Assembly: GCF_000016665.1 (NCBI RefSeq)
Contig: NC_009523.1
Span: 4,215,501 to 4,279,500 of the forward strand
Direction: 5' to 3'
Source of the DNA: Roseiflexus sp. RS-1
GTDB taxonomy: Bacteria > Chloroflexota > Chloroflexia > Chloroflexales > Roseiflexaceae
Length of the DNA: 64,000 nucleotides
Both the position numbers and the translations under genes were made by a program. This document shows positions 1,563 through 11,093 of the stretch, piece after piece. Numbering within the stretch: the first letter of the stretch is position 1; every line of letters starts with the position of its first letter. The notes under the pieces were generated by a model, which saw nothing but the letters and a program-made list of their open reading frames with translations, was not told where the DNA came from and did not search any database.

Positions 1563-3422
1563 ATGAAACGAACGTGGCATGCGGGCATTGTTGGAGCAGT
1601 CGCGCTTGGACTTATTCTGATGAGCACCGTATTCGTCGCAGTGCAGGAGCGGATGGGGCGGTGTGCAGCAGTGCCATTGATCGCTGACGATCTGCTGGGC
1701 GCGCCTGATTTTTCCAACCTGGCGCCCGGTACGCCGACCGGCGTTCTGTTGCCGGTCGGCTGGAGCGCAGCCGCAAGCGGCGTACAGGTTGGCGACTTTA
1801 CCGTTTCCGGTTCAGGGCGCTCGTTCCAACTCCTCGGCATCGCCAACCACCTCCGCACCCCGTCGGTCGCCGTGCGACCTGGCGTGTCGTACTGCGCCAC
1901 TGCGCAGGCGCTCGCCGACTCGTCTTCGGCGACTCGGGTGCGCCTCGGATTTCACTGGCTCGACGCCAGCGGCGACATCCTGCGCGTCGACTGGAGCGGG
2001 TGGCAGGAGGTGCGGCGCTGGAACGGACCAACTGACACTCAACCCTGGTCGCTGATCGGTGGAGGGTTCACCGCCCCGCCTGAAGCCACCCATCTTGCGG
2101 TGACGTTCCATCCTGCATCTGATGATCGGGTCTACCTCGACCTGATCCGCATCCGACACGGGCGCTTCCCACACACCGGCGAGATGCCGCCAGCATCACC
2201 TGAGCAGACTGCCGGGGTTGAGGCGCTTCCCTGGCCCAACGGCGCGCGCGCAGCGCTCTCATTTTCGTTCGATTGGGAAACGACGATGGGCGGGTTGATC
2301 CATTCGCGTTCGGTCGATGACCCAAACGTCGATCAGGACCCGCTTATGCGAGGAATGCGGATGCGCGAAGGAATCACGACAACGCTGGACATCTTCCGAC
2401 CATACGGCATCCGCGCCACCTACTACGCAACCGGGTACAATTTCCTGACCGGCAACCGCGAGCAGCGGCGCTTCATGGGAGACCCGACGTTCACGTGGGC
2501 GAACCGTGCTAACCGCTGGCAAACCGACGCCTGGCAGCAGCAACCCTGGTTCTCACCCGATCCGTATGGCACGGTAGCGACTGACCCTGCCTGGTATTTT
2601 GGCGACCTGATCCCGCTGGTGCAGCGCGAGGGACATGATATTCAGAGCCATACGTTCAGCCACCTGTACGGCGGGCTTGCGAGCGCTGAGGAGTGGCGCA
2701 GCGATCTCTCCGAATGGCGGAGAGTCGCTGCAGAGCACAATGTCCCGCCAGCGCGGTCGCTGGCGTTTCCGTGGAGCAGCAGCGCCGGCATGAGTTACGC
2801 GAACTGGCAGGCGCTGGCAGAAGCCGGCATCACGTCGGTGACGCGCACGAACTGGAATCCGCGCCAACCGCAGTACCATCTGGTGAGCAGGGATGAACCG
2901 CACTGCCGACCGGTTCCGGGCCACGAAGCGATCCTCGCCTGCCCGGATTTCTACCTGACAGAGCAGAGCGCTGCGGAAGCGCCAGGCGTGATCGAGCGCG
3001 CCATCAACACCGGCGGCATGATCGACCTGTGGGCGCACACCGAAGAAGTCGTCACTCCGGCGCAGATCGCCGTGTGGCGCAACGTTGTGCGCTATGCCGT
3101 CGGGCGCCGCGATGCGGGCGATCTGTGGATTGCGCCGCTGGCGGAGATTGCCGACCGGCAACAGGCGGTGGCGCTGGTGCGCATCGAGCGACACGAATCA
3201 GAACCGGTTCACGACATGTCCTCAAACGCACCGTTGCATTTCCTGGTTACGAACCATAGCGTACACGACCTGCAAGGATTGACGCTCAACCTGCCGTCTG
3301 TCATCCAACAGGTAACGTTGGACGGCGAACAGAGCAACGCAACGCCTGTTGTTCGCGGTACGCTGCTGATCTTCGATCTGGCAGCCGGTGAGACCATCGA
3401 GGTGACGGCATGGTTGGGGTAA
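1563..3422 (+). CDS. Polysaccharide deacetylase family protein
   Basis: A 619-residue protein. Residues about 8-28 form one hydrophobic segment after a short basic start, a signal anchor or signal peptide. A carbohydrate-binding-like beta-rich stretch follows (about 40-200), then a NodB-type deacetylase domain (about 225-530) with FSFSFDWE near its start (catalytic/metal Asp), GHDIQSHTFSHLYGG (the HxxxH metal pair) and LAFPWSS. The family removes N- or O-acetyl groups from extracellular polysaccharides or peptidoglycan. The start at 1563 was chosen over the far-upstream in-frame start at 804 because the upstream part reads through msrA antisense and the repeat block. It is the first gene of the surface-polysaccharide run and overlaps the next gene by 13 bases. 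Confidence 0.85.
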   Translation: MKRTWHAGIVGAVALGLILMSTVFVAVQERMGRCAAVPLIADDLLGAPDFSNLAPGTPTGVLLPVGWSAAASGVQVGDFTVSGSGRSFQLLGIANHLRTPSVAVRPGVSYCATAQALADSSSATRVRLGFHWLDASGDILRVDWSGWQEVRRWNGPTDTQPWSLIGGGFTAPPEATHLAVTFHPASDDRVYLDLIRIRHGRFPHTGEMPPASPEQTAGVEALPWPNGARAALSFSFDWETTMGGLIHSRSVDDPNVDQDPLMRGMRMREGITTTLDIFRPYGIRATYYATGYNFLTGNREQRRFMGDPTFTWANRANRWQTDAWQQQPWFSPDPYGTVATDPAWYFGDLIPLVQREGHDIQSHTFSHLYGGLASAEEWRSDLSEWRRVAAEHNVPPARSLAFPWSSSAGMSYANWQALAEAGITSVTRTNWNPRQPQYHLVSRDEPHCRPVPGHEAILACPDFYLTEQSAAEAPGVIERAINTGGMIDLWAHTEEVVTPAQIAVWRNVVRYAVGRRDAGDLWIAPLAEIADRQQAVALVRIERHESEPVHDMSSNAPLHFLVTNHSVHDLQGLTLNLPSVIQQVTLDGEQSNATPVVRGTLLIFDLAAGETIEVTAWLG

Positions 3423-5141
3423 GGAATGCGCAGGCGCGGACGCACACTACCTGGCAATTCCATCCAGGCGATTATCTGGTTGTTGCAATCTTTATCTGCA
3501 CAACCGTAGTTATGATGTATGCAGTGCTTGAGTCGCCGACATCCTTGCTGCTCGGTTGGGCGGGCGACAACATTCAGTACGTTTATGCCGCCGGATGGAT
3601 TGCTGAAGCGCTGCGCACCGGCGCTTCACCGTTTGTCGACCCGCGCATCAATCCCCCGGAAGGATTGGCGCTGACCGCCACCGATGTGCCATACCTGGGA
3701 TATATGGTAGTTGCACCACTGACGTGGATATTCGGACCCGTGTTCGGATATAATGCGCACCTGGCGCTCGCTCACTTCCTTTCGGGTCTGTGCGCATACC
3801 TGTGGGTGCATCGTCTGACCGGCAGTCGCACTGGCGGGTTAGTTGCTGGCCTGGCATTCATGCTGGCGCCGTTTCGCCACGCTCATAGCTACGGTCATCC
3901 GCAGATTGTGAGCACATATCCACTCCCGTTATTCTTTTGGGCGCTCGATGCCTCGCTCCGATCACAACCGGATCGTAAGGCGCTGGCAGGTCTGGCAGGG
4001 GCAACCTTCCTGCTCGGCGCAGCATCGCAGTATTACCTTGTTATTGGTTTACTCTGCGGTCTTGTGTATGCGCTATTGACGTTCGTGACCCGACGGTTGA
4101 ATCCACTGCGTGGCGCGTGGCTCGCAGCGCCAGCAGTACTGATCGGTGCATTATTTGCGGCAACCCCTTATCTGATGATAGCACAGGAAGGAACCTACAA
4201 TACTTATACTACTGAAAAAACACGAATGTGGTCAGCCAGCCCGATGAACTTCATCGTGCCATACCATCTGCATCCACTCTGGGGAACGCTTGTCGAGCAG
4301 TTGCGGCCTGAAACGTTGTGGGTTGAAAAAACGCTCTATGTTGGACTCGTCCCCGGAGTGCTGGCGCTGGTAGCATTGCGTACCTTTGAACGCCGGTTTG
4401 TCTGGGTCGGAACCGGTTTATTTGCGTTTATCCTGGCACTCGGCACCGATCTGCACACCGGCAATATACCGCTGCAACCGGATCGTCCGATCTGGTTGCC
4501 GGCATATTATCTGCATCAACTGCCGATCATCGGTCTTATGCGTGTTTGGGCGCGCTTTGGGGTTGTAACCATTCTTTTTGTTGCTTTGCTGGCAGGTGTA
4601 GGAGCGGCACAATTGACACATCGCAGTAAAGAGGCGTCACGATTCGGGGATCATACTCTCAAACATCGACGTTCGCTCCTTCTCGCCCCATTGATCATTT
4701 TGCTTGTAGCGCTCGATCTGAGCCCGATCTACAGAACCACTGATCGCATAACGCTGGCGCCTCGTCCGATTGACATCTGGCTTGCACAACAACCAGGCGA
4801 TTTCATTATCGGGTTTGAACCGGTTATTGATGACAAAATCAACTATTATATATATTCTGTTCGGCGCCCTGATTCATGGGAAGCAAACGTTCGCATTCAT
4901 GCATCAGGCGCATATGCCATCCGTCTTTCAGGATTTCAACGAGCGCTCACGCGGCTTTCCCGACAGTGCTTCCGCTCAACGATTGCGCGACCTGGGGATA
5001 CGCTATCTGCTGCTGGAAAAACATATGTTTGATGGGAAACGCGCCTTTCGCTGGGATGTCGTTGAACAACGACTCGCAGAGACCCCAGAGTTGTATGTTG
5101 TGACGGAAGTTGACGGTGTTGTTGTCGTAGGATTTCGCTAG
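3410..5141 (+). pseudogene. Polytopic membrane protein (GT-C/YfhO-like), frameshifted
   Basis: The main frame starts at 3410 and encodes about 480 residues with roughly ten hydrophobic segments and a short acidic loop near the start (GWAGDNIQYVYAAGWI), the plan of GT-C type sugar transferases and YfhO-like proteins that use lipid-linked sugars. After INYYIY (about 4850) that frame turns into low-quality sequence and stops at 5032. The natural C-terminus (LFGALIHGKQTF... through RYLLLEKHMFDGKRAF) continues in the next frame to the stop at 5139-5141. The break falls in a TA run (about 4845-4855), so loss of one TA unit would explain it. It may be a recent inactivation, a phase-variable tract or a sequencing error. 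The substrate is unknown. Confidence 0.6.
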
Positions 5142-5150
5142 ACTGCACAT

Positions 5151-6965
5151 ATGGCACACCTTGCGACGCCAGCAACCTGGATCGTGGCGTTGAGCCGCCA
5201 GCGCGGACCACTGCGGTTGTACCAGTGGCTCTGGCTGCTGATCTGCACACTTGGCGCGCTGGCGATAGCAGCGCCGCGCATCCTCTCCCAACCGATCCGC
5301 TATGAAACGCTGGCAACGGTGCAGATCGATGCCGTCGAACGCTATCACGAGTTGTATACCGACGGTCAGCCCGACGACGATTACCGCGCTGTCGAGGCGC
5401 AGGCGCTCGAACTGTTGAAAGCGCGCCGTCCCGACCTTGGCGGTCCGACCTATGCGGTGCGCTTTGCGCCACACTCCGATGGGCGCATCGACATCATCGC
5501 CACCGGTCGGACACCGCTCGAAGCGCAGATGCTGGCGGACGAAGCGGCAGAGATGCTGGCGCGCACAGTGCGCGCAGCCGGCGGACGCGAGATTCTGCGC
5601 AATCTCATGGGATGGGAACTGACCGAAGCGCTCCAGGGGCGTCAGCCAGAAACGACCTTCCAGCATCTGCTGCGCGAAATCATCCGGACGCAGGCGTTTC
5701 CGCTCAACCGGGCGGTCGAGCCGGTCTCGGCGTACATCACTGTTGATCAACTGCCACGCGAAGAACTGAGCGACCTGGCGCGCGCGCTGGAAGTTCGTGA
5801 GGAACAGTTGCGGCGTATCGATATTCCCGCGCTGGAGATGAATCGCACGGCTGCAACCGGCGCTGCGCTCCAGCGGATCGATGCCGACCTGGTGCGCCTG
5901 ACGGCGGGAAAACAGGCGATCCGTGATGCGCTCGCATACCTGTATCGCAACCTCAGCGCCGCCTTCGCCCCCGATGCACCCAGCGACGCCTACCGCGCGA
6001 TCCGGGCGCCGCTGCCGGAACGCGCCGTTGATCGCCGCATCCCGCTGCTCCTCTCGGTGGCAACGCTGGTCGGGCTGGTCTTCGGCGCAGCCGGTGTGGC
6101 AGTGGATCGCAGCGCTGGCGTCATGCGCAAAATCCTGGAACTCTGGGCATACCGCGAATTGATCCGCAACCTTGTGATCCGCGATTTGCAGGTTCGGTAT
6201 AAAGGCAGCGCGCTTGGCTATCTCTGGACGCAACTGGCGCCTCTGCTGCTCATGCTCGTCTTCTGGTTCGTCTTCAGCGCCTTCTTCCAGGCGGACATCG
6301 CCATGTTCCCAGTGTTCCTTCTGGTCGGTCTGTTGCCGTGGAACTTCGCCAGCGAAGCGGTGAGCGGCGGCACACGCAGTGTGATCGACAATGCGGCGCT
6401 GGTCAAGAAGGTGTTCTTCCCGCGTGAGGTACTGCCGCTCGTCTCCGTCCTTTCCAGCCTGGTCAACTTTGTGCTGTCGCTGCCGATGCTTCTGCTGGTC
6501 ATGGCGGCAGTTCAGGCAATGTACGCACCTTTGCGCGCAACGGGCAACTGGACGAACTTTTCGTGGACGTTCGTCTATCTGCCGGTGTTGATTGGCATTC
6601 AGACGCTCTTTCTGGCGGGGGTGGCGTTGTTTCTCAGTGCGCTGGCGGTGCGCTACCGCGATACCGTTCACCTGATCGGCATCTTCATTCAGTTCTGGTT
6701 CTTCCTCACACCGGTCATCTATGCGCTTGATCGGGTTGCCGGTCCGCTGGTGCAACTGGTGCGCTGGCTCAACCCGATGGCGTCGCTGGTTGAGTTTTAC
6801 CGCGAGATTCTGTATGGAAACGCTGTCGCCTTTGGTCAGATTCCGACCCCGAACCTCCCTGCCCTCGATAGTGTGCTGCGTGTTCTGTTGACCGCCCTGG
6901 CGACTCTGGCGATTGGCTACTGGTATTTCCAGCGTCGCAGCGGTGAGTTTGGCGAGCGGTTGTAG
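5151..6965 (+). CDS. Wzz-like domain fused to ABC-2 polysaccharide export permease
   Basis: A 604-residue fusion. Residues about 1-320 look like a chain-length-determinant (Wzz) protein: an N-terminal TM helix (about 25-45), a periplasmic-type helical region with heptad character, and a closing TM helix (about 300-320). Residues about 328-604 are an ABC-2 permease of the Wzm/TagG type: the N-terminal LWAYRELIRNLVIRDLQVRY signature, GYLWTQLAPLL, and six hydrophobic segments. Wzm permeases form the membrane channel that exports lipid-linked glycans together with a Wzt ATPase. No ATPase gene lies next to it, which is unusual for the family. Fusion of the length regulator to the channel is also unusual. 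It sits between the membrane protein above and the glycosyltransferases, supporting a role in glycan export. Confidence 0.8.
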   Translation: MAHLATPATWIVALSRQRGPLRLYQWLWLLICTLGALAIAAPRILSQPIRYETLATVQIDAVERYHELYTDGQPDDDYRAVEAQALELLKARRPDLGGPTYAVRFAPHSDGRIDIIATGRTPLEAQMLADEAAEMLARTVRAAGGREILRNLMGWELTEALQGRQPETTFQHLLREIIRTQAFPLNRAVEPVSAYITVDQLPREELSDLARALEVREEQLRRIDIPALEMNRTAATGAALQRIDADLVRLTAGKQAIRDALAYLYRNLSAAFAPDAPSDAYRAIRAPLPERAVDRRIPLLLSVATLVGLVFGAAGVAVDRSAGVMRKILELWAYRELIRNLVIRDLQVRYKGSALGYLWTQLAPLLLMLVFWFVFSAFFQADIAMFPVFLLVGLLPWNFASEAVSGGTRSVIDNAALVKKVFFPREVLPLVSVLSSLVNFVLSLPMLLLVMAAVQAMYAPLRATGNWTNFSWTFVYLPVLIGIQTLFLAGVALFLSALAVRYRDTVHLIGIFIQFWFFLTPVIYALDRVAGPLVQLVRWLNPMASLVEFYREILYGNAVAFGQIPTPNLPALDSVLRVLLTALATLAIGYWYFQRRSGEFGERL

Positions 6966-7194
6966 AGAACCGGGAACCGAGAACCAAGAACCGAGAACCA
7001 AGAACCGAGAACCAAGAACCAAGAACTGAGAACCGAGAACTGAGAACCGAGAACTGAGAACCAGGAACTGAGAACCGAGAACTGAGAACCAGGAACTGAG
7101 AACCGAGAACTGAGAACCAGGAACTGAGAACCAGGAACTGAGAACTGAGAACCAGGAACTGAGAACTGAGCATTGAGCATTGAGAACTGAGAAC
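6964..7194. repeat. Tandem 7-bp repeat array (GAGAACY type)
   Basis: About 32 degenerate units of seven bases (GAGAACC, AAGAACC, GAGAACT, CAGGAACT variants) fill the whole space between the permease and the next glycosyltransferase. A shorter array of the same unit lies at 13618-13683. There are no spacers. Heptameric arrays of this kind resemble the STRR sequences known from heterocystous cyanobacteria in form; I do not claim homology. Confidence 0.9.
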
Positions 7195-7195
7195 C

Positions 7196-9235
7196 ATGAA
7201 AACGCTCAACTCTGTCGCTCCCACCATCGTGTTGCCCGCGTGGCAGGCGCTTCGCGCGGAACAGGCTGTCACGTCACACTCGCCGCACGCGCTCATGGCA
7301 GAAGTTCAACCTTCAACCTTCAACCCCCAACCTTCAACCTTCAACCTTCAACCTTCAATCTTCAACCTTCAGCCTTCAACCTTCAACCTTCAACCTTCAA
7401 CTCCCGACCCCCAACGCCCACCCATCACGATCATCATCCTCACATGGAATGGTCTCGAATATACCCGCCGTTGCATTGAGAGCATCCGCGCCCACACCCA
7501 CGATATAGCGTATCATCTGCTGGTGGTGGACAACGGAAGTAGCGATGGAACGCTGGAGTGGTTGCGCTCACAACCAGAGATCAGGGTGATTGCCAATGAG
7601 CGCAACCTGGGATTTGCGCGGGGCAACAATCAGGGCATGGCAGCCACTCCACCGGACCACGACGTGCTGCTGCTCAATAACGATACCCTGATCATTCAGG
7701 ATCACTGGCTTGCGCATTTGAGCGATGTGGCGCATAGCCATCCTGCATATGGCATTGTCGGGTGCACGCTGCTGCATGCCAATGGATCGCTCCAGCACGC
7801 CGGAACCTATATGCCGACGGATAGTTTTTGGGGGTGCCAGATCGGTGGCGGCGAAGCATACATCGGGCAATATCCCGGCGTGCGCGAGGTCGAGGGGATC
7901 ACAGGCGCGTGCATGTACATCCGCCACGACGTGCGCGCGCTGTTGGGCGGTTTCGATGAAGCGTACACCTCGTACTTCGAGGATACCGACTACTGTCTGC
8001 GGGCGCGTCAGGCGGGGTTCAGGATCGTCTGCACCGGCGGCGTTCAGGTGGTGCATTTCGAGAATACCAGCGCCAGGATCAATAATGCATCCTGGCAGGC
8101 GATGTGGGACAGGGGGCGTGAGGTGTTCGTTCGCAAATGGAAATCTTTCTACGACCAGAAGTACCACCGTGCCATCGTCTGGCACTCACTGGTGGCGTCG
8201 CCGTCCGGGTATGCGACGTCGTCGCGTGAACTTGTGCTCGAACTCGACCGTTGCGGCATCGATGTGCGCCTGGCGTGCATCTGGGGGAATGATTTCACCG
8301 AACCGCTGACGGGCGATCCGCGCATCGATCAGTTGCGCGCCCGTCTCAAAGACTCCAGTCTGCCGCAGGTCGTCTACCATCAGGGCGACTCGTTCATCAA
8401 GAATAGCGGACGCTACCGCATCGGTTATACCATGATCGAGACCGACCGGTTGCCGGATGAGTGGGTCTATCAGGCGAACCAGATGGACGAGGTCTGGACG
8501 CCAACCCACTGGGGGGCTGAGGTCTTCCGCGCCAGCGGCGTGAAACGTCCGATCTTCGTTATTCCGCTGGGGATCAATCCAAACTATTTTCATCCTGGCA
8601 TCCAGGGGCGTAAGCCCGGCAATCGATTCGTCTTCCTGTCAATCTTCGAGTGGATCGAGCGTAAAGCGCCGGAAGTGTTGATCCGCGCCTACCAGCAAAC
8701 GTTTCGCCGCAGTGATGATGTGCTGCTGCTGCTCAAGATTTTCAATTACGATCCCGGTCTCGATGTGGCGCGACGCCTGGGAGAACTGATCCAGCGCGAC
8801 GGTCCGCCGGTGGTGGTGCTGCCCAATCAGCAGATCGCTGCATACCAGCTCGGCTGTCTCTACCGGAGCGCCGACTGCTTCGTGCTGCCAACGCGCGGCG
8901 AGGGATGGGGCATGCCGGCGCTGGAAGCAATGGCGTGTGGACTGCCGGTTATTTCCACCAATTGGGGTGGGCAGACGGCGTTTCTCAACGCAGATGTCGC
9001 CTATCCGCTGCAGGTGCGCGGTCTCGTCCCGGCGGAAGCGCGCGCCCCATACTACCGCGGGTTACGCTGGGCAGACCCCGACATTGACCACCTTTGTGCA
9101 CTGATGCGCCACGTGTATGAACATCCTGACGAAGCGCGCGCGGTAGGAGCGCGGGCAGCCGTCGAAGTCGCTGCACGCTGGACATGGGCGCATGCGGCTG
9201 CGGCGATCATCGAGCGTCTGGAAGCGATTGAATAA
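7196..9235 (+). CDS. Bifunctional glycosyltransferase, GT2 + GT4 domains
   Basis: A 679-residue protein. The GT2 domain spans about 77-330: the start PITIIILTWNGLEYTRRCI, then VVDNGSSDGT for nucleotide-sugar binding, LLLNNDT (DxD-like) and the FDEAYTSYFEDTDYCLRA acceptor/catalytic region as in rhamnosyltransferases. A GT4 domain follows (about 345-679), with the EX7E-like segment PTRGEGWGMPALEAMACGLPV. Residues 1-76 are atypical and include an in-frame 7-bp repeat tract that encodes STFNLQP heptapeptides, so the true start may be downstream. It probably adds successive sugars to an exported polysaccharide. Its stop overlaps the next ATG by one base, so translation is likely coupled. Confidence 0.88.
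   Translation: MKTLNSVAPTIVLPAWQALRAEQAVTSHSPHALMAEVQPSTFNPQPSTFNLQPSIFNLQPSTFNLQPSTPDPQRPPITIIILTWNGLEYTRRCIESIRAHTHDIAYHLLVVDNGSSDGTLEWLRSQPEIRVIANERNLGFARGNNQGMAATPPDHDVLLLNNDTLIIQDHWLAHLSDVAHSHPAYGIVGCTLLHANGSLQHAGTYMPTDSFWGCQIGGGEAYIGQYPGVREVEGITGACMYIRHDVRALLGGFDEAYTSYFEDTDYCLRARQAGFRIVCTGGVQVVHFENTSARINNASWQAMWDRGREVFVRKWKSFYDQKYHRAIVWHSLVASPSGYATSSRELVLELDRCGIDVRLACIWGNDFTEPLTGDPRIDQLRARLKDSSLPQVVYHQGDSFIKNSGRYRIGYTMIETDRLPDEWVYQANQMDEVWTPTHWGAEVFRASGVKRPIFVIPLGINPNYFHPGIQGRKPGNRFVFLSIFEWIERKAPEVLIRAYQQTFRRSDDVLLLLKIFNYDPGLDVARRLGELIQRDGPPVVVLPNQQIAAYQLGCLYRSADCFVLPTRGEGWGMPALEAMACGLPVISTNWGGQTAFLNADVAYPLQVRGLVPAEARAPYYRGLRWADPDIDHLCALMRHVYEHPDEARAVGARAAVEVAARWTWAHAAAAIIERLEAIE
7305..7401 (+). 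repeat. In-frame 7-bp repeats (TTCAACC) inside the glycosyltransferase start
   Basis: About 14 units of TTCAACC with a few variants. Three units equal seven codons, so the translation repeats STFNLQP without breaking frame. The unit differs from the intergenic GAGAACY array 110 bases upstream and is not its reverse complement. Confidence 0.9.
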
Positions 9236-10488
9236 TGCACATCGGTATCGATATTTCGCTGTTGCGAATTGCTCAGGCGGGCGTTCTCACCTATCACCGG
9301 GCGCTGCTCAACCACCTGGTGCGCGTGGGACGCGACTGTCATTTTACGCTGATCGACGTTCTGCCGCTCAACCCTGGTCGCCCAATGGCGCCGCTGGCAG
9401 CGCTCGATGCACCGAACGTGCGGGTGGTGCGTTGCCCGGGCATCCGGCGCGGCTACCTCAGCGCACGTCCTGCGTTCCACCACGGACCTGCGCATACCAT
9501 CACCGCATGGATCGACCGTCTGCTCGACCCGATCTGGGCGCAGGCGGCAGTCATCGAGATGGGAGTGGAACTCCGCGCTGCCACACGCCGTGTCGAGGTG
9601 TTCCATGCCTCCGATCAACTCCCCTTTGCTCCGCCCGGCGCTGCGGTTGTGCTGACCATTCACGATCTGACCACGCGCCGCTTCCCCGACATGCATATGC
9701 CGGACAATACCGCACTCCACGCCATCAAAGAGCGCTTCGCCCGCACCCGCGCCGACCGTATCATCGCCGATTCTGAAGCGACCCGACGCGACATCGTGCG
9801 TGAACTGAACATCCCGCCAGAAAAAATCAGTGTAGTGTACGCAGCAGCAGATACGCGCTTCCGTCCCCATACTCCCGAAGAAACACAAACGACCCTGGAG
9901 CGCTACAGTCTGACGCACAACCGGTACATCCTGAGCGTTGGCACCCTCGAACCGCGAAAAAACCACGTCCGCCTGATCGAAGCGTATGCGATGCTCCGCG
10001 CCAGATATACGCCAGCCGGACATCTGCCGCCGCTGATCATCGCTGGCGGCAATGGATGGAAGTACGACGCAATCCTGGCAGCGCCGGAACAGACCGGCGT
10101 CGCCGGGTTCGTCCGGTTTCTTGGGCGCGTCCCCGATGATGACCTGCCCGCGCTGATTGCTGGATCGCGCGTGTTTGTGTATCCTTCGTTGTATGAAGGA
10201 TTCGGGTTGCCGCCGCTGGAAGCGCTCGCCTGCGGTGTACCAGTGGTTGTGTCGCACGCAGCGTCGCTGCCCGAAGTGGTTGGCGACGCCGGGCTATACT
10301 GCGACCCGTATGACCCGCACGATATTGCACGCCAGATAGCGGCGCTGCTGGAAGATAACGACCTGTCGCTGCGATTGCGGTGTGCTGGCGTTGAACGTGC
10401 GAGGCAGTTCTCGTGGGAGCGCGCCGCCCGTGAGACGCTCGCCGTCTACGCACAGGCGCGTGATGAACGAAAGGCGAGACGACGATGA
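9235..10488 (+). CDS. GT4 family glycosyltransferase
   Basis: A 417-residue retaining glycosyltransferase of the GT-B fold. Visible signatures are the N-terminal [11 protein letters not shown] start, the linker [12 protein letters not shown] (donor-binding start of domain 2, about residues 240-251), and [22 protein letters not shown] with the two conserved glutamates (about 318-340). The family includes mannosyltransferases that build exopolysaccharide or O-antigen chains. It overlaps both neighbours by one and four bases, forming a tight operon with the GT2-GT4 gene. The precise donor is not predictable. Confidence 0.9.
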
Positions 10489-11093
10489 CGATCTACTGGG
10501 TTAATGTTGATACTCAGGATGCGCTGACCCTCATGGCAGCGGTCGAACGCGCCCTGGAAACCGGTGACACGGGCGCGCCGCCGGCGCCCGGTGTAGCCGG
10601 TTCACCCGCTTCCCCCGCCAATCCGACGGACGCATATCTGCACGACAATATGGCAATCGCGCGCGCCGTCTGGTCGGTTGACCCCCACCGTATTGTTCTG
10701 TCGAGCCGACCGGGATTGGCGGCGGCGATCAACGCCTTTCAGCGCCTGGTGCGCAGGGCGACGTGGTGGTACGCCCTGCCGCAGTGGTTGCAGATCAGCG
10801 AGTTTCATGGCGCCGTCGTGCGCGCGCTCGATGCACTGATCGAGAAGGAACGAAGGCTGGACATGCGGGTGCGTGACATCGAACAAATGCGATTACAGGC
10901 GCATTTGTTCGCCCTGCAACAGCAGATCGCCGTACTGCGCGCCAGGAACGCCGAACTGGAGAGCCGCGTCGCCGCGCTGGAAGCGCAACGCGCACCCTCT
11001 CAGCACGCCGGACAAACCGGCTCGTCGTTCTTCAACAGACACGATCCGCATAAGAACCCTGGTGGTGATATAATATCCGATGGTGCATCGTAA
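10485..11093 (+). CDS. Hypothetical coiled-coil protein in the polysaccharide operon
   Basis: A 202-residue protein starting in an ATGA overlap with the upstream glycosyltransferase. I do not recognise a family. Residues 28-45 are Gly/Pro/Ala-rich; residues about 125-170 have a clear heptad pattern with LFALQQQIAVLRARNAELES, predicting a coiled coil. No signal peptide or membrane helix is seen. Position suggests a scaffold or accessory role in glycan assembly. A TGATATAAT string near its 3' end (11066-11074) could be a promoter for the downstream sensor gene. Confidence 0.65.
   Translation: MTIYWVNVDTQDALTLMAAVERALETGDTGAPPAPGVAGSPASPANPTDAYLHDNMAIARAVWSVDPHRIVLSSRPGLAAAINAFQRLVRRATWWYALPQWLQISEFHGAVVRALDALIEKERRLDMRVRDIEQMRLQAHLFALQQQIAVLRARNAELESRVAALEAQRAPSQHAGQTGSSFFNRHDPHKNPGGDIISDGAS

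Follow-up and report, generated by a model that had tools for sequence, protein, structure and literature searches.

A predicted PCP module fused to a Wzm-type ABC permease in Roseiflexus sp. RS-1 and other Chloroflexales

Introduction

What drives a polysaccharide export channel that has a Wzz-like domain built into it and no ATPase encoded beside it, and what is the added domain for? The question is raised by one open reading frame of Roseiflexus sp. RS-1, lying in a 64,000-nucleotide stretch of contig NC_009523.1 (positions 4,215,501 to 4,279,500), called here the window. The first-pass annotation, made from the letters of the window alone, had proposed that the fusion of length control and channel directly couples chain length to export. 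We ask here whether the fusion is genuine, whether its N-terminal part (the N-domain) is a polysaccharide co-polymerase (PCP), where the ATPase is, and whether length is what such a fusion would control.

Results

Two modules in one reading frame

The gene (5151..6965, + strand) starts with ATG and encodes 604 residues in an intact frame, and it has full-length homologs. A PCP module arranged as TM1-periplasmic-TM2 (residues ~23-321) is followed immediately by a Wzm-type permease (~325-604). TM1 (residues 23-45, 5217..5285, +) is a helix in both models that were built, with a hydropathy peak at 27-45. The extracytoplasmic domain (residues 46-296, 5286..6038, +) was recognised from the N-domain model, Foldseek and hhalign alignment to Wzz, and TM2 (residues about 297-321, 6039..6113, +) is a helix of the model, with a hydropathy peak at 300-318, that continues into the permease. 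The Wzm-type ABC-2 permease half itself (residues 325-604, 6123..6965, +) contains PF01061, ABC2_membrane, at residues 338-555 (6162-6815, +; E 2.9e-17), with 63.3 bits on the 604-residue protein for a cut-off of 26.9. A profile of eight relatives matched this half to the solved Wzm 6oih (E 1.1e-19) and TarG 6jbh (E 3.2e-12), and further to Wzm 6m96 and to 9qfx; the PDB sequence matches of the fusion profile were confined to the permease half. The nearest NCBIfam model, the galactan exporter Wzm NF050109, scored 78.7 bits, below its equivalog cut-off of 380.

A search of genome contigs returned seven full-length fused relatives (57-96% identity in the best segment), those with a name being Chloroflexota (Roseiflexus MAGs), together with three permease-only matches in other phyla. 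When the N-domain profile was run on 400 Chloroflexota genomes, 41 were matched, 39 of them strongly (E 2.4e-27 or better) and two weakly. The weak match of genome G299 is an MgtE-type protein, and for that of G137 no ORF match was found. All 39 strong genomes belong to the order of the window, the filamentous Chloroflexales, and in each the single match is the fusion itself, N-domain and permease in one frame. As this holds in 39/39 with N-domain identity down to 26%, the gene is neither the product of a frameshift nor a chance join. The same join was seen in G403, in G400, and in G446, which lies outside the order, and the idea that an assembly error or a read-through had stitched two genes together can practically be dismissed. 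An internal start yielding a free permease was also considered, and dropped since residue 325 is a methionine in only 14 of the 39 and is thus unconserved. The presence of a Wzz-like part and an ABC-2 permease in one ORF, the starting point of the first-pass annotation, therefore stands.

In a second survey, a 39-row N-domain profile was run on 158 genomes of the class. The N-domain was found in 72 of the 82 genomes of the order, and in 58 of the 60 that were at least 90% complete. Eight of the ten misses are less than 90% complete; the other two, G206 and G410, are both more than 90% complete and have no N-domain. G206, which has no fusion, carries an ordinary unfused Wzm-Wzt pair, the Wzt match there being only partial. 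Outside the order the fusion was encountered once, in G446, with an adjacent Wzt. Beyond the first 39 genomes it was confirmed in G400, G403 and G446, and called in the others by open-frame length, several frames being cut by a contig end. G400 holds two fused PCP-Wzm genes (L175 and L176), and neither stretch has an adjacent Wzt profile match. The search for the same fusion in other Chloroflexota, suggested by the first-pass annotation, thus gave 39 strong cases out of 400, all in Chloroflexales, plus G446. No published description of such a PCP-Wzm fusion was found by a literature search beyond which most subscription journals lay.

The N-domain is very probably a PCP

The relationship of the N-domain to Wzz is invisible to Pfam. 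With the N-terminal 326 residues, no family was found at cut-off in any of eight relatives; PF02706 (Wzz) stayed below its cut-off, at best E 0.42 in one of the eight, and a profile of the same segment gave zero matches to PDB sequences at E 10. The call was nevertheless borne out by profile-profile comparison, by profile searches and by structure comparison.

Alignment by hhalign of the 39 fused N-domains with 13 stand-alone Wzz proteins of Chloroflexales gave a probability of 96, E 4.3e-9 and a score of 70.4 over 118 columns, spanning residues 23-143, from TM1 to the long helix. As controls, reversed alignments scored 31.5 and 30.5, the best of 50 column shuffles 20.4, and the fusion's own permease half 14.7. 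By subset, the distant fused domains alone scored 71.5 and the core group alone 58.5. The fused-domain profile matched stand-alone Wzz proteins from other families within the class, at loci L171 (6.6e-8), L172 (8.8e-7) and L174 (1.1e-5), as well as at L180, L181, L182, L184 and L185. In the reverse search, the Wzz profile matched the fused proteins of L170, L177 and L106; the window protein itself was unmatched at 1e-4.

An AlphaFold model of the N-domain, built on eight sequences (mean pLDDT 81.7), shows in order TM1 (23-45), beta, alpha, beta, beta, a long alpha, a hairpin (203-268), beta and TM2 (about 297-323). This is the layout of a PCP: TM1, an extracytoplasmic alpha/beta dome with a helical hairpin, TM2, with low TM-scores. 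Structure prediction could have revealed an N-terminal part unrelated to Wzz; instead, PCP entries made up 49 of the 50 PDB rows listed by Foldseek, among them WzzE 6rbg (E 4.9e-5), KpsE 8tsh (E 1.5e-4), WzzB, Wzc and FepE, at TM-scores of 0.47 or less and with large rmsd. By VIA-align, PCPs and unrelated alpha/beta proteins tie (Z 7-8.7). The alignments extend over 150-224 residues for PCPs versus 76-123 for the unrelated proteins, which do not cover the whole 20-324 with both TM helices. Taken as a whole, we regard a PCP fold of the Wzz/KpsE/Wzc kind as very probable for the N-domain.

Seven extracytoplasmic residues (Y51, A142, A143, G145, R175, R211 and E214) are invariant in the 39 N-domains, and G308 is likewise invariant in all 39 fusions. 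Outside the Roseiflexus group and L080, the N-domain is 26-48% identical to that of the window versus 46-76% for the permease; it evolves faster, and its size differs between relatives through insertions. Such traits would fit an N-domain that takes no part in the glycan path and persists passively, as a remnant or to anchor assembly. The seven invariant residues, and the retention of the N-domain in 58/60 near-complete genomes of the order, make that reading improbable. Pairwise distances (465 pairs) were correlated between N-domain and permease (0.955), N-domain and Wzt (0.787) and permease and Wzt (0.864); these values carry little weight because shared ancestry was uncontrolled.

Five PF02706 places in the window's genome raise another possibility, in which the fused domains assemble with free-standing Wzz-like subunits from other loci into a normal PCP ring, PCPs being octameric in the solved complexes (PMC11041684). 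We consider this improbable, given that the N-domain profile matches only the fusion in each of the 39 genomes and that, among the loci listed, none has a stand-alone Wzz next to the fusion. A possible unfused ancestor, with separate PCP, Wzm and Wzt genes, was not found in other Chloroflexota: the weak matches in the class are the stand-alone Wzz proteins cited above (L171, L172, L174, L180-L182, L184 and L185), and these stretches gave no permease or Wzt match. Two of them are shorter than 4 kb, so this negative result is a weak one.

The Wzt partner is encoded elsewhere in the window's genome

The first-pass annotation had seen no Wzt-type ATPase between 1 and 11093, and correctly so: the first 16 kb of the window gave no match to a Wzt profile, and the 100 PF00005 places listed for the genome (150 of 199 candidates scored) all fall outside the 64 kb. 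The absence is local. In 30 of the 39 genomes a Wzt gene starts at most 700 bases past the end of the fusion, on the same strand. The two genes are adjacent, for instance, in the Chloroflexus loci L093 and L101. The nine genomes without an adjacent Wzt comprise six from the window's genus plus its neighbour G323, together with G353, G238 and G370, in the last of which the contig ends. Eight of these nine hold a displaced full-length Wzt ortholog (E 1.7e-160 or better). In G335 the fusion is present and no Wzt match was obtained at E 1e-40. Since 30 of 39 genomes have an adjacent Wzt and eight of the other nine an ortholog elsewhere, the system as such does not lack an ATPase.

The partner ATPase, which the first-pass annotation had suggested looking for elsewhere in the genome, was located at C1:1070675-1071898 (minus strand). 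It is the best match to the fusion-adjacent Wzt of L024 (C1:1070690-1071892, 60% over 2-408, E 2e-154), the runner-up in the same genome giving 46% over 3-278 (E 4.6e-69). This Wzt gene is separated from the fusion by 3.15 Mb, or by 2.65 Mb in the opposite direction on a contig that is circular. Among the PF01061 places listed, none was given within 480 kb of it, the nearest being 1589943 and 934256. In a tree containing many duplicate rows from overlapping loci, the eight displaced Wzts group with the fusion-adjacent ones and separately from nine paralogs, at a fork with support 82/96 that the tree tool did not star. The main clade excludes Wzts of the L103 and L105 type and three rows of the G380/G142 type. 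PF00005 is present in 31 of 31 Wzts and PF14524 (Wzt_C) in 29 of 31; the Wzt of the window's genome matches Wzt_C with E 1.6e-27. By adjacency in relatives and by orthology, it is the predicted cognate ATPase of the fused Wzm.

The one other Wzt_C protein that the genome has (883 aa, L029:6352-9000) was rejected as partner; it is a paralog and not the best match. It belongs to a second, unfused Wzm/Wzt system near C1:5.13 Mb (L029:6352-9000 and L029:15053-15901), where it lies ~6 kb from its own permease, whose identity to the fusion's permease half is 39%. Along with Wzt_C it has two methyltransferase stretches, and so may unite motor, cap reader and possibly cap maker in a single chain.

The two components of the exporter, we conclude, are encoded in trans in the window's genome, and their genes were neighbours ancestrally. 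The observation that no ATPase lies nearby is thus accurate for this locus and does not extend to the system, the gene having been relocated in the window's lineage.

Neighbouring genes

Upstream lies a gene for a NodB-like (PF01522), predicted secreted or anchored protein of 619 aa (1563..3422, +), its start being set by relatives (804 in the ORF list). A NodB-like gene precedes the fusion in 36 of the 39 loci, within ~320 bases in 32 and one gene further in four, the window included; of the three loci lacking it, one (L077) starts at the end of a contig. One D, one E and three H are invariant in 36/36 proteins, which we take to be a D-W-E variant of the NodB motif. The proteins of the window and of L093 pass the PF01522 cut-off, that of L109 narrowly misses it, and that of L024 has no match.

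Between this gene and the fusion, a membrane protein gene (3410..5138, +) has a broken frame in the window: the frame changes around 4839-4852 by comparison with Roseiflexus-group relatives of 576-580 aa, that of 578 aa being the one compared. It is outside the conserved core, for it is absent from this spot in L075 and in the clustered loci outside the Roseiflexus group.

Downstream are a GT2-GT4 glycosyltransferase gene (7196..9235, +), a GT4 glycosyltransferase gene recognised by family match (9235..10488, +) and a gene for a small protein with a predicted coiled coil and no family above cut-off (10485..11093, +). Two minisatellites lie here, of 14-bp units at 6965-7194 (16.4 copies) and of 7-bp units at 7305-7400 (13.7 copies). 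The annotated N-terminus of the GT2-GT4 protein is translated from the second one, so the true start is probably later. Further tandem arrays are intergenic (1096-1471; 98-bp units, 2.9 copies, and 40-bp units, 2.9 copies) and create long spurious ORFs. G323 has an enlarged glycosyltransferase cluster downstream of its fusion, with members at L079:10791-13775 (995 aa) and L079:13920-15455 (512 aa).

An outer-membrane partner family is missing from nearly all genomes examined in the order

Of 40 Chloroflexales genomes, one matched the OPX family (PF02563), and that of the window did not; the sole match is L159 (G052:C114:4796-5083, E 2.6e-19), which may be contamination or a real gain. According to a cryo-ET study, Chloroflexales have neither LPS nor bamA genes, and Roseiflexus castenholzii has no outer layer of that kind (PMC7332563). 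With OPX absent in 39/40, bridging, at least to known OPX, cannot be the role of the PCP module in most of these species.

Discussion

Relation to known exporters

The closest parallel is KpsMT-KpsE, another ABC polysaccharide permease that works with a PCP, and KpsE chains are among the Foldseek matches. In the solved capsule exporter, TM2 of KpsE contacts the interface helix of KpsM (PMC11041684), and this is the joining point of the fusion. In our full-length model, helices 297-321 and 325-345 are consecutive; the mean pLDDT is 62.8, with most of 318-530 under 50, and since the permease half is poor the junction geometry was taken from helix order. If TM2 indeed runs straight into the interface helix, the fusion would fix a contact that other systems make by assembly. 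The differences are as clear. KpsE, a class-3 PCP, is a separate protein with eight copies per transporter, compared to one chain here and, as we infer, two per dimer; it bridges to KpsD of the outer membrane, whereas no OPX match exists in 39/40 genomes of the fusion's order; and the ATPase of the fusion, unlike that of KpsMT, carries Wzt_C. The link of class-3 PCPs to an ABC polysaccharide exporter is present in covalent form in 39/39, and their OPX partner is missing (PF02563 in 1/40).

The Wzm/Wzt O-antigen exporter of Aquifex aeolicus (6oih, 6m96, 7k2t) has a comparable ABC-2 permease and a Wzt with Wzt_C, side by side as in 30 of our 39 genomes, but known Wzm chains listed are of 254-307 aa and lack a PCP module. 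Co-polymerases of class 1 (Wzz/WzzE) and class 2 (Wzc) share TM1, the alpha/beta dome with its helical hairpin, and TM2, but they function in Wzy pathways with no permease attached, and Wzc ends in a kinase. Members of the PCP family form rings of 4 to 12 subunits in solved cases. The wall teichoic acid exporter TarG/TarH resembles the fusion in its related permease half (6jbh) and probably in its task, export of a wall polymer by cells that lack a classical outer membrane; it has no PCP module.

A proposed mechanism

We propose the following explanation, to which, as a whole, we would give an even chance. The gene is predicted to provide the membrane half of an ABC exporter of the Wzm/Wzt type, whose substrate would be a lipid-linked polysaccharide, probably one of the wall or surface. 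Each permease subunit would carry its own PCP module, with TM2 running straight into the first (interface) helix of the permease. The Wzt encoded at C1:1070675-1071898, with its cap-binding-type domain at the C-terminus, would act in trans as the motor. A permease dimer would bear two PCP domains, not eight, which may form an open, partial cage over the exit. As the OPX family is lacking, the most likely task of the module would be to guide the emerging glycan towards extracytoplasmic processing, putatively by the NodB-like enzyme, and towards wall attachment, not towards an outer-membrane pore.

In this proposal the main determinant of chain length would be Wzt_C, through recognition of the completed end of the chain. 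Wzt_C-type domains of O-antigen exporters recognise a terminal cap (PMC9445017), and the presence of Wzt_C in 29/31 Wzts suggests that length may be set there instead of in the PCP module. The direct coupling of length to export advanced in the first-pass annotation would require the module to be a true chain-length regulator, the fusion tying the length decision to export. The sequence kinship of the N-domain is most visible to Wzz-type PCPs of the same organisms, and these regulate length in Wzy pathways (PMC12220298). ABC-dependent chains, though, are made in the cytoplasm before export, and Wzt_C offers another length device. Moreover, KpsE is described as a cage bridging to the outer-membrane exit, KpsD, and as dispensable for inner-membrane translocation (PMC11041684), and a 2025 review terms length control in ABC-dependent pathways presumed (PMC12220298). 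We consider a length-regulating module unlikely on these grounds. What holds of the coupling is its physical side, a PCP-type module covalently joined to a Wzm-type permease; the length role does not follow from it.

Significance

A contact between PCP and ABC exporter known so far from assembly appears here fixed by evolution as one chain, at the place where the KpsMT-KpsE structure predicts it, in bacteria without the outer-membrane partner family. The fusion separates the bridge from other PCP roles and offers a system of fixed stoichiometry. It also designates a candidate exporter, together with its motor and an enzyme encoded upstream, for a core surface polymer in Chloroflexales, an order with a poorly understood envelope. 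More tentatively, the fused module may be a fourth kind of PCP, built into its exporter and working as a pair without ring or outer-membrane partner on the wall or surface polysaccharide of Chloroflexales. Were this true, the minimal PCP unit would be two domains over one export channel, the effect of a PCP on an emerging chain could be tested where OPX bridging is impossible, and Chloroflexales would have a near-universal, single-system exporter.
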